The notes beneath the pieces were generated by a model. That model worked only from the letters and a program-made list of their open reading frames with translations. It was not told the origin of the DNA and ran no database searches. A program made the position numbers and the translations under genes. Of a DNA stretch of 64,000 nt, positions 24,962 to 55,792 are shown piece after piece (the stretch's first letter is position 1; every line of letters starts with the position of its first letter). This DNA comes from Chryseobacterium indologenes (GTDB lineage Bacteria > Bacteroidota > Bacteroidia > Flavobacteriales > Weeksellaceae): the NCBI RefSeq assembly GCF_018362995.1, contig NZ_CP074372.1, positions 3,038,001-3,102,000 on the forward strand, read 5' to 3'.

Positions 24962-26242
24962 TTAAATTCCAAAAGCGGCTTTAATCTCCTCTACTTTGTC
25001 AAGTTTCTCCCAAGTGAAGAATTCAAGGTCTTTCAACGTAAGCTCGTTTTTATGTCCTTTATTGAACGTTTTATCAGCTACATAATGCTCTTTACCCATA
25101 TGTCCGTAAGAAGCTGTTTCCTGATAAATAGGATTTCTTAATTTTAAATTCTGTTCAATAGCATAAGGTCTTAAATCGAAAATCGTAGAAACTTTTTTAG
25201 CGATATCACCATCATGAAGATCTACTTTCGCAGTTCCGTAAGTGTTGATATACAAACCACAAGGTTCAGCTACTCCGATTGCATAAGAAACCTGTACCAA
25301 AACTTCATCAGCAATTCCTGCAGCAACCAAGTTTTTAGCAATATGTCTTGTTGCATAAGCTGCACTTCTGTCTACTTTAGAAGGATCTTTTCCAGAGAAA
25401 GCACCACCACCGTGAGCTCCTTTACCACCGTAGGTATCAACGATGATTTTTCTTCCTGTAAGACCTGTATCTCCGTGAGGTCCTCCGATTACGAATTTTC
25501 CTGTAGGGTTGATGTGATATTTGATCTGATCGTTGAATAAAGCTTTGATTTCCTCTGTTTGTTGTGCTACAACTCTTGGAACCAGAATGTTCTTAATATC
25601 CTCACGGATCTTGTTCAGCATTTCCTCTTCAGCTGCGAAATCATCGTGCTGAGTAGAAACTACGATAGAATCAATTCTGATTGGCTTGTGGTCATCAGAA
25701 TATTCAATAGTTACCTGGCTTTTTGCATCAGGACGAAGATAAGTGATTTCTTTATTTTCTCTTCTGATTGCAGAAAGTTCTTTCAGAATAGTGTGAGCAA
25801 GGTCCAATGCAAGAGGCATATAGTTAGCCGTTTCATTGGTAGCATACCCGAACATCATTCCCTGGTCTCCTGCTCCCTGTGCATTTGCTTTCGCTTCGAA
25901 AGACTCATCATTTACAGCTCTGTCAACTCCCTGGTTGATATCAGGTGACTGCTCATGGATGGCAGAGATTACTCCACAAGAATCTCCATTGAACATGTAT
26001 TCCCCTTTTGTATACCCAATTCCGTTGATTACTTCTCTGGCAATGGTCTGTACATCAAGGTAAGCATCAGATTTTACTTCTCCTGCCAATACCACCTGTC
26101 CGGTAGTTACAAGAGTTTCACATGCTACTTTTGAGTCTTTATCATATGCTAAAAAATGGTCGATTAATGCATCGGAGATTTGGTCGGCAATTTTATCCGG
26201 ATGTCCTTCTGAAACTGATTCAGATGTAAATAAATAAGACAT
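24962..26242 (-). CDS. metK: S-adenosylmethionine synthetase
   Basis: A 426-residue MAT enzyme making S-adenosylmethionine from methionine and ATP. It shows [16 protein letters not shown] at 13-28 with the catalytic His14, the methionine-site GAGDQG, and the P-loop-like GGGAFSGKD. Length is slightly above the 384 residues of E. coli because of insertions usual in Bacteroidetes. It is monocistronic with a 237-base leader region upstream in which I found no S-box-like element, although a candidate S-box lies before the TonB receptor at 52643. Confidence 0.97.
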
Positions 26243-26479
26243 ATAATTCTTTTGTTTTTAAAGATTTAAAAATAGTATTTACGAAAAATATGAATGAAAT
26301 TGCCCAGAAAAAAAGAATACTGTTTTAGCATATTTTTATAGAGGTTGCAATCAGGTCAAATTTTTCCTCGTAATAAACGTCAGCAAATTTAAGCACTATT
26401 TTCGTAATACTCAAAGATTTTGTTTATTAATTATAATTTTATTTAAATTGATGATTTCTATCACTTTAAAGCATTTCCA

Positions 26480-52642: not shown

Positions 52643-55387
52643 TTAGAATCTGAATTCAATTCTTGCAAATAAGAACCTTCCTCCTATCCCATATTGGGAA
52701 ACCTGTCTGGAATAGACAAACTGATTATCAGCTGTTAAAGAGCTTATACCTGGGCTTTTGGAAGGCAGTATATTTAAGATATTATTACTTCCGATGGTGG
52801 CAGAAATATTTTTATTAAAATCATATCCTACAGATAAATCTGTCACCAGACGGCTATTCAGAATGAAATGCTCTGTGCTTCCTGTTACCCCATCAAAATT
52901 AGCATCCACAACATCTGCATCTGTCACTTTACCGAAGAAAGAATTACGCAGTACAAAAGTAAAGGCGGAAAATCTTAAAGTATTGGATAAGGTAGCTTTT
53001 ACACGTGGAACAGCTTCTTCAAAATACACTCTGTTCGGTTCTGAGAAATAATTATCGATCTGGCTCACCAATTTAGGAGATGCATGGATATCCCCGATTC
53101 TTTTGGTTTGATTAAAATTGACTCCTAAATTATTCTCCAAAGAAACTGCCGATGAGATTTTTGAGTTCTGAGAAATGGTAATATCCAAACCTTTCGTCTG
53201 AGAATCTACAGCATTGGCAAAAAAGTTAGCAGCACTTGCTCTCGCCAGATCAAAAGCACTCTGCAGAACAGCCTGATCAGAACCTGGAGTAAAACTACCA
53301 TCAGGACGATAGAAAAGATCTGTAAGCACTACCCTATCTTTAATCTTTATTAAATAAGCATCTGCTGTGAAGGTCAGGCTTAATGCCGGAATCTTCCAGG
53401 TAATTCCCGTGCTGTAAGATTGTGAAGTCTCCTGTTTTAATTTGGGAATGCCCAATGCCTGTGCAGCCTCAGAATTATTTCTGAAAGTACCTACTTGTGT
53501 TGTTTTCCCCTGCTGAATCAACGTAGAAGTGGAACTATAATAGATTTGTGCTAAAGAAGGCGCTCTGAATCCTGTGGAAACCGCTCCTCTCCAGTTCAGA
53601 TTGGGAGCCAGCTTTACATTCGTTGCCACCTTATAATTAAATGTAGACCCGAAGTCTGAATAGTTCTCATATCGTAAGGCTCCTTCCAACAGCCATCCGT
53701 CAGTAACCTCTAGCTCTGCATCAGCATAAGCAGCGACACTGTTTCTGTTTCCTGAAACTGCATTTTCCGGACTGAAGCCTGGAAAAACCTGAGCCCCAGC
53801 TGGTCTTACTTTGTCAAAGAAATCGGTAACTTTTTCATTTTCAGGAGTGTTAGCGGTTACTACACGTCCATAAATGTCGTAAGAAGCATAAGAATTTTCT
53901 TTTCCTGCATTGACTTTATAATTTTCATGTCGGTATTCACCTCCGAATGCTATATTCAAACCTTTCAGCACATCGTATTTTTTGGAGAAATCCAGATTGA
54001 CGGTATTTTGTGAAAATTCAGATCCTCCGGCATCAAATGTTCTTGGAGAACTGTCTGTAAGCGAAGCATTATAGGTATTTACCACTCCGAAACCAAAGGT
54101 ATTTTTCCCGAATGTATTACTGAAATCCACATTCCAGCCATTCCATTTTCCTTTAATTCCGGCAGCAAGTGAATAATCATTTACGGTTGCTTCAATCTGA
54201 GGAAGATATCCATTGGGAGTAACGGCATTGATGTTTCTTTCATTATTAGGAAGACGGTAAAAGCCTCCTGCATTTCCAAGACGATAGCTGTAGCCTCCAA
54301 ATGAATAAATCTTCCATTCATCATTCACAGGAATTTCAGAGTTGAAAAAGAGCTGCCCTGACTGTAGTTTAGATTGTCCTGCCCTCAGACTGAAATCTTT
54401 TCTCTCCAATCCTCTGTGATTAAGCTCCTGGGAGGTAAAATCTCTCCTTAATAAATCTTGAAGCTCAGAAATGCTGTTTGCCCCTGAGATCTGAGACTGA
54501 AAATCATTCCCAAAATAATCTACTTGGGCTGCATACTGTTTAATCGTGTTGATAATCTGCTGAGTATTGGGAGTATTGGTAATATTTTTATATAATCCAT
54601 CAATATTAACTCCATCCTGTAATGCTCTGTAATTAATTGCATTATAAGCATTAAAGATATCTCCTTCCCTCACTCCTGCTCTGGAATATGGATCACGATA
54701 TTGGGCAGAACCGGTAACATTAAAAAACCCGGACTTTCCTATTTTAGCTCCATAATTAAGATCCACAGAAATGGTCTGTCCATCCACTCCTCCGGAGAAA
54801 TTATTGGCAACAGGTGAAGCATATCCACCTAAAAATACCTGTCCGGAAAGTCCAAGTCTTTTTTTCAATCCCAGGTTAACGACTCCGGCAATAGCATCGG
54901 AACCATATTGGGCAGAAGCACCGTCTCTTAAAACTTCAATTTTCTCTAAAGCAAAAGCTGGAATGGCATTAAGATCAGTTCCCACAGAACCTCTTCCCGG
55001 CGTAAGGGTAACATTAATCAATGAAGATTGGTATCTTCTTTTTCCGTTTAACAAAACTAAAACCTGATCTGGACCTAACCCTCTTAAAAGAGCTGGATCT
55101 ACGAAATCAGTTCCATCATTAACGGTGTGAGAAGTGGATGAAAATGAGGGTACGATATAATTTAAAGCCTGGCTGATATTATTAGTAGGACTCTGTTTTA
55201 AAATTTTTGATATGTTAATGATATCTACAGGAACAGGGGTCTCCGTCAATGATCTTCCGGAGCCTCTTGATCCAAGGATTACTACATCTTCTATTTTTTT
55301 AGATTGTAAAGTGTCCGTCTGTGCGTAATAAAATGTAGAAATGAGCGCGATAGAAGGAACAAAGATTCTTTTTTTGAAATTGTGCAT
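52643..55387 (-). CDS. TonB-dependent receptor behind an S-box-like leader
   Basis: A 914-residue receptor with signal peptide (ending near YYAQ, residue 22), a plug (TETPVPVDIINISKILKQSP, RGLGPDQVLVLLNGKRR, SAQYGSDAIAGVVN) and a barrel ending GGRFLFARIEFRF, a terminal aromatic as required for barrel assembly. Its long leader holds a compact S-box-like RNA and a Met/Cys-rich upstream frame, so I infer that it imports a sulfur compound such as methionine, cystine or a derived organosulfur. The receptor family itself gives no substrate information. Confidence 0.92.
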   Translation of the reverse strand: MHNFKKRIFVPSIALISTFYYAQTDTLQSKKIEDVVILGSRGSGRSLTETPVPVDIINISKILKQSPTNNISQALNYIVPSFSSTSHTVNDGTDFVDPALLRGLGPDQVLVLLNGKRRYQSSLINVTLTPGRGSVGTDLNAIPAFALEKIEVLRDGASAQYGSDAIAGVVNLGLKKRLGLSGQVFLGGYASPVANNFSGGVDGQTISVDLNYGAKIGKSGFFNVTGSAQYRDPYSRAGVREGDIFNAYNAINYRALQDGVNIDGLYKNITNTPNTQQIINTIKQYAAQVDYFGNDFQSQISGANSISELQDLLRRDFTSQELNHRGLERKDFSLRAGQSKLQSGQLFFNSEIPVNDEWKIYSFGGYSYRLGNAGGFYRLPNNERNINAVTPNGYLPQIEATVNDYSLAAGIKGKWNGWNVDFSNTFGKNTFGFGVVNTYNASLTDSSPRTFDAGGSEFSQNTVNLDFSKKYDVLKGLNIAFGGEYRHENYKVNAGKENSYASYDIYGRVVTANTPENEKVTDFFDKVRPAGAQVFPGFSPENAVSGNRNSVAAYADAELEVTDGWLLEGALRYENYSDFGSTFNYKVATNVKLAPNLNWRGAVSTGFRAPSLAQIYYSSTSTLIQQGKTTQVGTFRNNSEAAQALGIPKLKQETSQSYSTGITWKIPALSLTFTADAYLIKIKDRVVLTDLFYRPDGSFTPGSDQAVLQSAFDLARASAANFFANAVDSQTKGLDITISQNSKISSAVSLENNLGVNFNQTKRIGDIHASPKLVSQIDNYFSEPNRVYFEEAVPRVKATLSNTLRFSAFTFVLRNSFFGKVTDADVVDANFDGVTGSTEHFILNSRLVTDLSVGYDFNKNISATIGSNNILNILPSKSPGISSLTADNQFVYSRQVSQYGIGGRFLFARIEFRF

Positions 55388-55510
55388 AGTATTGTTGTGT
55401 TCTTTTTGTTGTTAAAATTATTTTTGAGCAATACAAATCCTGTAGCCTTAATTTTAAGGTTACCATTGGTCTTTGAAAATGTTTGTATTATTTTTTAGAA
55501 ATAGAAATGG

Positions 55511-55555
55511 CTAGAAGCAACAACACATGCGCATGTAGAAATGGCATGAAAACAT
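55511..55555 (-). CDS. Putative Met/Cys-rich leader peptide
   Basis: A 14-codon frame encoding MFSCHFYMRMCCCF, then TAG, lying between the S-box-like RNA and the receptor gene (124 bases before its ATG). Three Met and four Cys residues in 14, with a run of three Cys, suggest ribosome stalling when Cys or Met is scarce. The palindrome ACATGCGCATGT (55525-55536) lies inside it. A hairpin at 55443-55462 (GTAACCTTAAAATTAAGG, then CTAC) follows. Candidate only; no homologue was looked up. Confidence 0.4.
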   Translation of the reverse strand: MFSCHFYMRMCCCF

Positions 55556-55693
55556 ATGGGAATAATGAAGATTCACTTCATGATCCGAAGAATAAAAAAT
55601 TACTGATGGAATGTGATTTCCCTTGTCTTTAAACATTTGGCTTTAACTTTAAAACAAAAATTCAAGATGGGAGTAATGATAGAATGATAAACA

Positions 55694-55776
55694 TTTTTTC
55701 CGGAAGATCCGGCTTATCGATTGCAGCACCTTGCTTGTTTTTGCAGGTTGCTATCCCATCTAGAGATTCTTGATAA
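55694..55776 (-). promoter_or_regulatory. Compact S-box (SAM-I)-like riboswitch candidate
   Basis: Minus-strand RNA with a three-way junction. P1 TTATC (55776-55772) pairs with GATAA (55718-55714) and is followed by the S-box J1/2 sequence AAGA. A short P2 ATCTC/GGGAT (55767-55763, 55757-55753) follows, then P3 AGCA-A-CC-TGC with GCA-A-GG-TGCT (55752-55743, 55734-55725), which is the S-box GCAACC...AAGGTGCT core. Canonical P4 and the long P2 with its pseudoknot loop are missing. The RNA starts at a predicted promoter. SAM binding is not shown. Confidence 0.55.
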
Positions 55777-55784
55777 TTACCTGG

Positions 55785-55792
55785 CAAAGATA
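55785..55792 (-). promoter_or_regulatory. Promoter -7 box of the S-box-like leader
   Basis: TATCTTTG on the minus strand; transcription would begin near 55778, at the first base of P1. The rest of the 512-base gap 55388-55899 holds the leader elements on this strand and the promoter of the plus-strand receptor, with nothing else recognised. Confidence 0.6.

Follow-up and report, generated by a model that had tools for sequence, protein, structure and literature searches.

A candidate two-stage sulfur-sensing leader in Chryseobacterium: a SAM-I/IV aptamer followed by a cysteine-ending upstream reading frame before a TonB-dependent receptor gene

SAM and cysteine, both central pools in the metabolism of sulfur amino acids, are usually seen as being sensed by separate leaders. 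In this paper we looked at one leader on the minus strand of a 64,000-nucleotide stretch of Chryseobacterium DNA (the window), where a preliminary description had noted a compact S-box-like RNA before a TonB receptor. The question raised by this locus is to which class the RNA belongs and how it may act on a receptor whose ATG lies ~300 nt further downstream, with an upstream open reading frame (uORF), absent from that description, in between. Our analysis confirms the earlier observation and partly supports the interpretation given to it. The leader begins with the following elements:

55785–55792, minus strand: promoter -7 box TATCTTTG of the TAnnTTTG type, seen in the sequence just upstream of the aptamer
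55684–55781, minus strand: SAM-I/IV riboswitch aptamer (RF01725), by cmscan at 53.2 bits against a gathering cut-off of 41.1
55772–55776 with 55714–55718, minus strand: P1, TTATC/GATAA, from the sequence
55763–55767 with 55753–55757 (element 55753–55767), minus strand: P2, ATCTC/GGGAT, from the sequence and covariation
55755–55761, minus strand: AGATGGG, covering the loop and 3' side of P2, predicted as one of two pairing partners of the switch strand
55743–55752 with 55725–55734 (element 55725–55752), minus strand: P3 with the S-box core AGCAACCTGC/GCAAGGTGCT, from the sequence and the Rfam match
55700–55712, minus strand: hairpin 3' of P1, CCGG-ATCTT-CCGG, with two pairs changed on both sides, G-C to A-U, in alignment A5
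55689–55692 with 55737–55740, minus strand: pseudoknot of the 3' tail GTTT with the P3 loop, from alignment A5

All of the stem and core elements named in the preliminary description were found on the minus strand, and the covariance models return the positive SAM-clan score that it predicted, 53.2 bits to RF01725. In the Rfam scan of the window this match is full length, covering positions 1–99 of the 99 in the model, with E-values of 6.6e-6 for the whole 64-kb window and 9.3e-8 for 901 bases; an end-to-end match at these E-values puts the leader RNA far beyond chance. Since RF01725 passes its curated cut-off at full length, the earlier idea of a miniature S-box variant or of a ligand class not yet known is rejected. 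The element is longer than the extent first given (55694–55778), and two of its parts, the hairpin 3' of P1 and a pseudoknot, had been missed. The preliminary description noted the absence of P4 and of a long P2 with its pseudoknot loop; the pseudoknot found here pairs the P3 loop with the 3' tail.

Alignment A5 holds 22 distinct aptamer sequences, 17 from leaders of the receptor and 5 from other genes. It is paired in 99.8% of 572 cells (at most 39.0% in slid controls), with 20 double-changed cells versus 4.5 in shuffles and 5 double-changed pairs versus 2.8 (3 of 500 shuffles reach 5); these five belong to P2, the 3' hairpin and the pseudoknot. The count of further pair types is not above the shuffles (8 versus 8.9). 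The five uninterrupted pairs of P2 form in 22/22 rows and two of them are double-changed. The pseudoknot is paired in 100% of its cells, one pair occurring in three types (A-U 17, C-G 4, U-A 1) and the remaining three being invariant. The P3 core pairs are invariant in all 22 rows and P1 likewise never varies, so that covariation says nothing for or against these two stems. P1, P2 and P3 are all conserved in the homologous leaders; the covariation that had been expected of all three is seen in P2 alone.

P4 and a kink-turn are defining features of SAM-I. Both of these hallmarks, the kink-turn loop in P2 and a P4 inside the junction, are absent from the aptamer sequence, and a genome-wide search with RF00162 (SAM-I) gives three other places, the aptamer locus not among them. 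P2 here lacks the internal loop that SAM-I and SAM-IV have in this stem; the 3' hairpin is present in the Rfam structure line of RF01725, in which the pseudoknot is unmarked. We take the pseudoknot between P3 loop and tail to be a feature of the SAM-I/IV family. In excerpts of the literature, P4, the kink-turn and pseudoknots are all mentioned, the first two for SAM-I (PMC5393176), the SAM-I/IV family (2010) comprises SAM-I/SAM-IV variants without an internal loop in P2 (PMC2864571), and the structure 4L81 of a SAM-I/IV riboswitch is reported to bind SAM in a SAM-I-like region (PMC5393176). Our aptamer shares with this family (RF01725; PMC2864571; 4L81) P1, the P2 without internal loop, the P3 core, the 3' hairpin and the pseudoknot of P3 loop and tail; no family-defining difference is known, and what is distinctive is the following uORF and the ~300-nt leader. 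Judged by its sequence, the leader RNA is with near certainty a member of the known SAM-I/IV riboswitch class, and by analogy with that family its ligand would be SAM. The predicted start site is supported by the -7 box, as TAnnTTTG lies at most 30 nt upstream of TTATC in 33/33 orthologous loci; PMC9723704, in excerpt, gives this motif as the F. psychrophilum sigma-A consensus.

The gene that follows is:

52643–55387, minus strand: TonB-dependent receptor of 914 aa, the regulated gene, with Plug (PF07715) and barrel (PF00593) domains

Its position agrees with the preliminary description, and the control of sulfur-compound uptake proposed there is probable, from a SAM-clan aptamer before a TonB receptor. 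The best PDB sequence matches of the receptor are ferric enterobactin receptors, mostly over the plug and the neighbouring region. The three SAM-I riboswitches above cut-off in the source genome lie before a frame with MetX as its best NCBIfam matches (below their cut-offs), before a TonB receptor 39% identical to ours (G000:C1:3160000-3172000, L234), and before a protein that has the plug domain of TonB receptors and is SusC-like by eye. An amino-acid permease gene lies 7 nt downstream of the 39%-identical receptor, and this suggests a receptor group that feeds amino-acid uptake. No short ORF with at least two Cys was found within 400 nt of the aptamer start at these three SAM-I loci. At least three outer-membrane receptor genes of this genome are thus behind SAM-clan RNAs, with the Cys uORF at only one. 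Elsewhere in the window, a SAM-II long-loop riboswitch (RF01726, 63.7 bits, 26315–26375, minus strand) precedes a SAM synthetase gene (metK, 24962–26242); it is the sole other Rfam match above cut-off there, so that two different SAM riboswitch classes are present in one window.

Between the aptamer and the receptor lies the reading frame that had not been noticed:

55511–55636, minus strand: uORF of 41 codons and a stop, MFKDKGNHIPSVIFYSSDHEVNLHYSHMFSCHFYMRMCCCF, Cys-ending in 26/26 leaders of the genus and in 33/33 named orthologous loci
55517–55525, minus strand: three consecutive Cys codons after Met-Arg-Met, from the sequence and comparison

How closely is this uORF tied to the aptamer? 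RF01725 is above cut-off in 26 of 98 genomes of the genus, with 27 matches, and is found in 23 of 246 genomes of the order at E <=0.001, 22 of them above cut-off; all 26 leaders of the genus that have the aptamer also have the Cys-ending uORF. Our receptor search of GTDB species genomes gave 71 loci, 33 at >=81% identity and 38 at <=57%. The aptamer and the Cys-ending uORF occur together before all 33 of the former, which are all titled Chryseobacterium. Before the 38 distant homologues there is neither the aptamer (by regular expression) nor a comparable Cys-ending uORF (0/38 for each), two of these loci, L182 and L184, holding only 385 and 4 nt upstream. Another of the 38, L163, has an unrelated 7-residue ORF with CC. 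At the level of the family, the DNA pattern for MCCCF-stop is present in 42 of 296 genomes, and 28 of the 30 loci examined have the aptamer upstream. These comparisons of leaders show a serial arrangement, the aptamer and then the Cys uORF.

The arrangement was ruled out as a companion of all receptor homologues, since in genus genomes without RF01725 the leader is present in 0/20 receptor-homologue loci (20 of 37 matches). Three of these 20 have a SAM-I-like leader, confirmed as RF00162 for L092, and one (L082) has an unrelated 8-residue ORF with CC. The NhaC family includes methionine transporters. Six related SAM-I/IV aptamers with the same P3 core (L059, L060, L063–L066) precede similar genes, and the proteins of L060 and L063, two scanned of the six loci, belong to this Na+/H+ antiporter (NhaC) family; the leaders before such NhaC-type genes are short and without a Cys uORF. 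Two further RF01725 matches of ~44 bits, L027:1501-1604 and L079, lie before similar genes and have a structure unlike the receptor leaders. They may be a distant variant or a false match, and L027, for its other structure and its phage-integrase family gene, was excluded from the leader analyses. In L183 and L024, apparently one genome, the uORF is frameshifted in its first half, and a shorter ORF from an internal ATG keeps a readable Cys end; L024 has no downstream frame of 200 codons and no long receptor frame. This frameshift is possibly an assembly error.

Another question is whether the uORF is translated. Its peptide starts with MFKDKG and ends with FSCHFYMRMCCCF before the stop, the Cys end being MCCC in 27 of 28 rows and MGCC in one. 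The ratio pN/pS was calculated for 28 distinct uORFs of 126 nt, without L149, L152 and L049 (129 nt), L133 (123 nt), L183 (frameshift), L131, L139 and L155; alignment A1 is without L131, L133, L139, L155 and L183. The ratio is 0.39 overall and 0.16 in codons 26–41, compared with 1.03 and 1.01 overall and 0.76 and 1.95 in codons 26–41 for the shifted frames, and of 200 out-of-phase column shuffles (12-sequence subset) 3 attain the ratio observed for the whole uORF. Three divergent members have one extra codon, a 3-nt insertion that keeps the frame. We see in this strong signs of amino-acid selection on the peptide, strongest at the Cys end, and the uORF is very likely a cysteine leader peptide. 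A ribosome-mediated cysteine attenuator would have a short translated reading frame with a run of Cys codons close to the stop, and on comparative evidence this is found here. A chance Cys run was also considered and rejected. The pattern TGY-TGY-TGY-NNN-TAR occurs at 30 places in the source genome, versus 9 for a reversed control pattern, with an in-frame ATG before the Cys run at three (the uORF locus, L111 and L125). In the DNA inspected at L111 and L125, the 1.1 kb after the Cys run contains no start of an ORF of 90 residues.

The RNA of the uORF is itself structured, and a third hairpin follows it:

55557–55588, minus strand: hairpin in the uORF, TCGGA..ATGAAG/CTTCAT..TCCCA, from covariation in 31 sequences
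55526–55548, minus strand: hairpin in the uORF, CATGCCAT/ATGCGCATG, ending just before the Cys codons, with 98.6% of cells paired
55442–55463, minus strand: third hairpin, after the uORF, GTAACCTTA/TAAGGCTAC, with 92.9% of cells paired (28 sequences)

The three uORF helices counted are paired in 97.8% of cells versus 96.5% in shuffles (31 sequences) and at most 52.7% in slid controls, with 8 double-changed cells versus 2.6. Less striking are the double-changed pairs, 4 versus 2.0 (23 of 500 shuffles reach 4), and the pair types are not above the shuffles (337/500). In the hairpin at 55557–55588, whose second outer pair is mismatched (C-C) in the window, a pair joining third codon positions is A-U in 22 sequences, G-U in 5 and G-C in 4; this change from A-U to G-C agrees with a constraint on the RNA in addition to that on the peptide. 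One pair of the second uORF hairpin is G-C in 22, G-U in 6, A-U in 2 and unpaired in 1. This hairpin contains both Met codons, so the conservation of Met may be structural. The third hairpin has 4 of its 9 pairs double-changed and 10 double-changed cells versus 2.2 in shuffles. Alignment A2 is without the five insertion-bearing leaders, L131, L139 and L155.

What, then, would be the output of such a leader? The terminator scan found no intrinsic terminator on the minus strand of the leader, the third hairpin is without a U-tract, and the sole terminator-like call in the region is on the opposite strand. No mutually exclusive terminator and antiterminator hairpins were found after the uORF. In 5 of the 33 leaders (L142, L144, L145, L146 and L176), ~250 nt are inserted between the uORF stop and the receptor, ahead of the third hairpin, which survives beyond. 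In these five the hairpin is out of direct reach of a stalled ribosome, and the insertions argue against a terminator/antiterminator pair of the classical kind. The classical attenuator with a terminator after the uORF is unsupported, the third hairpin having no U-tract and lying about 250 nt further away in some leaders. The insertions inspected contain ACGCAAAG and its inverted copy; the inserted segment is possibly a mobile repeat. In the leader after the aptamer C exceeds G in 33/33 loci, weak evidence that is compatible with Rho. The lack of a standard terminator together with the insertions favours Rho or decay as the last step, with translation of the uORF then protecting the leader; this output, the weakest step of the model, and the direction of control are inferred.

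If the two elements are coupled, this could be through the spacer between them:

55664–55671, minus strand: switch strand CCCATCTT, complementary to AGATGGG of the aptamer and to uORF codons 3–6
55651–55660, minus strand: U-rich run TTTTTGTTTT, in 13/14 rows of alignment A3, not called part of a terminator
55620–55630, minus strand: AAAGACAAGGG within the uORF, the other sequence with which the switch strand may pair, from predicted pairing and codon use

The switch strand is kept in 13/14 rows of A3 while the surrounding spacer changes quickly, and its partner in the uORF is AAGA..GGG in codons 3–6. Because the strand hardly varies, covariation says nothing on the pairing. In six leaders, the pairing of AGATGGG with the strand is 0–3.1 kcal/mol above the free minimum and the aptamer fold 3.5–7.3 kcal/mol above it, ligand and pseudoknot not being counted; in the aptamer fold the strand is then predicted to pair with the uORF. 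With the aptamer modelled as a separate domain in 34 distinct leaders, the predicted pairing of the strand with uORF codons 1–7 has a mean of 0.74. The start codon is unpaired at 0.28 in the SAM-bound model versus 0.42 in the SAM-free one (strand removed) and is less accessible in 32 of the 34 leaders, L149 and L055 going the opposite way. A shuffled strand brings this value to only 0.34, which means that the strand accounts for only part of the masking of the start codon. In 12 leaders, shuffled strands pair at 0.33 versus 0.79 for the native one, and synonymous recoding of codons 2–7 lowers the pairing from 0.79 to 0.50 on average. Codon 4 is GAC in 27 of 31 rows and never GAT, and codon 5 is AAG in 26 of 31 and never AAA, GAC and AAG being the rarer choices in the long ORFs of the window (28% and 21%). 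Together these results support such a gate without proving it; the predicted change in accessibility is modest, and we give about even odds to a gating of uORF translation by SAM.

Do similar leaders exist elsewhere in the order? The pattern Met-x-Met-Cys-Cys-Cys is found in 44 of 395 genomes, and of 30 loci examined, 4 are the leader of the receptor described here. Eight others belong to one related genus (g35; L206, L207, L209–L212, L214 and L215) and have MRM followed by six to nine Cys, interrupted by Ser in two, 54–56 nt before a gene with a PhyH domain in the three scanned; no SAM aptamer was found near them by regular expression, nor by Rfam in L206 and L209. A locus before cysH (L205, about 1456–1630) has a Cys-rich uORF (..TCCCTMTMCCCNCCC..) and then, by eye, a terminator-like hairpin with a long T-run, and resembles a cysteine attenuator of the classical kind in a member of the order. 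In L227:81-476 a canonical SAM-I aptamer (82.6 bits) is followed by a uORF ending in MPMCCCCC before a MetX-like gene, the SAM-I leader (L227/L236) having, by eye, its own terminator-like hairpin ahead of the poly-Cys uORF. This was not upheld as a conserved parallel, since three sister loci (L237–L239) keep the SAM-I aptamer and not the Cys run, L237 keeping CC. Most of the other 16 pattern loci look incidental. The poly-Cys uORFs of the order support, without proving, the view that Cys runs in Bacteroidota mark leader peptides that sense sulfur. A Cys uORF as a general habit of SAM-I leaders was rejected: a CC-containing uORF between aptamer and first gene is present in 0/30 best-scoring SAM-I loci from the 395 genomes. 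In L240 and L252 the CC ORFs lie inside the gene, and the truncated loci L245, L259 and L263, scanned whole, gave one match, ~1.2 kb beyond the aptamer in L263.

The reading that we prefer, with a probability of roughly one half, is a two-stage sulfur-sensing leader in which a SAM aptamer is coupled to a Cys leader peptide, with the receptor as output. The first stage would be the SAM-I/IV aptamer at the promoter, a class well established here for an RNA whose ligand is assigned from its family, and the second a translated leader peptide, which on comparative evidence has the final residues Met-x-Met-Cys-Cys-Cys. When SAM is absent, CCCATCTT is predicted to pair with AGATGGG of the aptamer. 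SAM would lock the aptamer and free the strand, which would then pair with uORF codons 3–6 and make the uORF start less accessible. When SAM is low the uORF would be translated, and the ribosome would slow at the Cys codons if Cys-tRNA is short; the Met codons perhaps also read tRNA charging. Ribosomes that translate the uORF and stall at its end would protect the leader from Rho or decay, and synthesis of the receptor would be highest when SAM and cysteine are both scarce. The stronger form of this proposal, in which SAM binding determines whether a ribosome can begin the cysteine-reading uORF, so that the riboswitch acts through translation of a peptide that senses tRNA, and in which SAM and cysteine together set an outer-membrane importer throughout a clade of Chryseobacterium, we put somewhat short of an even bet.

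The inputs could also be independent, the aptamer controlling transcription or RNA decay alone and the Cys uORF being a separate attenuator without coupling by the strand. The modest predicted accessibility effect, the tolerance of the ~250-nt insertion after the uORF in 5/33 leaders and the one genome (L227/L236) in which a SAM-I leader with, by eye, its own terminator-like hairpin precedes a poly-Cys uORF would all fit this. It is made less likely by a switch strand that stays constant while the spacer around it varies and that, by prediction, pairs with either partner, and by the absence of a terminator call after the SAM-I/IV aptamer. The same strand could serve a SAM ON switch, in which, without SAM, the helix of AGATGGG and CCCATCTT with the U-run terminates transcription and SAM prevents this. 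Such a helix lies within 0–3.1 kcal/mol of the free minimum in six leaders and is followed, after 3–4 nt, by TTTTTGTTTT; this spacing exceeds the 0–2 nt limit of the scan, which called no terminator on the minus strand, and uptake would be expressed while SAM is plentiful. SAM-clan switches are generally OFF switches, which also counts against the ON reading, and we consider it very unlikely.

Two other options concern the uORF itself. Cys, His and Met are concentrated at its end (SCHFYMRMCCCF), where amino-acid selection is strong, as might be expected of a functional micropeptide that binds metal or thiols, or of a copper or zinc sensor, rather than a reader of cysteinyl-tRNA. Yet the His and the first Cys vary, the uORF is tied to a SAM aptamer, poly-Cys uORFs of the order precede cysH and a MetX-like gene (single loci), and the Cys codons abut the stop as in the Cys leader peptides of PMC1262725 (in excerpt), all of which makes a micropeptide unlikely. 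That the aptamer alone matters and the uORF is incidental would agree with the other SAM-I/IV loci, such as those before NhaC-type genes, whose short leaders without a Cys uORF indicate that the aptamer can do without one. Given the codon-phased constraint and 33/33 conservation, an incidental uORF is very unlikely, and the coupled two-stage leader remains our preferred reading.

Cysteine-responsive attenuators reportedly exist in mycobacteria, to go by the title of a 2020 paper by Canestrari. Excerpts of published work describe Cys leader peptides in actinobacteria (Mycobacterium cys operons) with Cys codons abutting the stop (PMC1262725) and a Cys uORF before cysS, uORFC-8-2, in Rhodobacterales (PMC8632094), and suggest attenuation before amino-acid operons of F. 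psychrophilum (PMC9723704). Our leader shares with Cys leader peptides a short ORF in the 5' leader, adjacent Cys codons and a position before a sulfur- or cysteine-related gene, and with the mycobacterial ones the lack of a terminator hairpin among the structures found. It differs in belonging to Bacteroidota, in lying behind a SAM aptamer, in the two conserved hairpins inside the uORF and in preceding a TonB receptor. In the mgtA/mgtL leader of enterics, alternative RNA structures and a leader peptide have a Rho-dependent outcome (PMC11552253, in excerpt); there too one leader joins alternative structures with a peptide read by the ribosome, Mg2+ acting through proline and acidic codons in place of the SAM aptamer and Cys codons of Chryseobacterium. 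A Xanthomonas SAM-I riboswitch reportedly also senses uncharged initiator tRNA (PMC7270179, in excerpt) and so combines SAM and tRNA state on one leader; the tRNA sensor reported there is the RNA, whereas in Chryseobacterium it would be a translated peptide. Among the matches listed, with subscription literature mostly outside them, none put a cysteine leader peptide in series behind a SAM riboswitch, whether in general or in Chryseobacterium or Bacteroidota.

If the two-stage reading is true, a SAM aptamer and a cysteine-reading ribosome in series on one leader would combine the two pools without a protein regulator. Cysteine leader peptides would extend to Bacteroidota, and the TonB receptor would be predicted to import a sulfur source.
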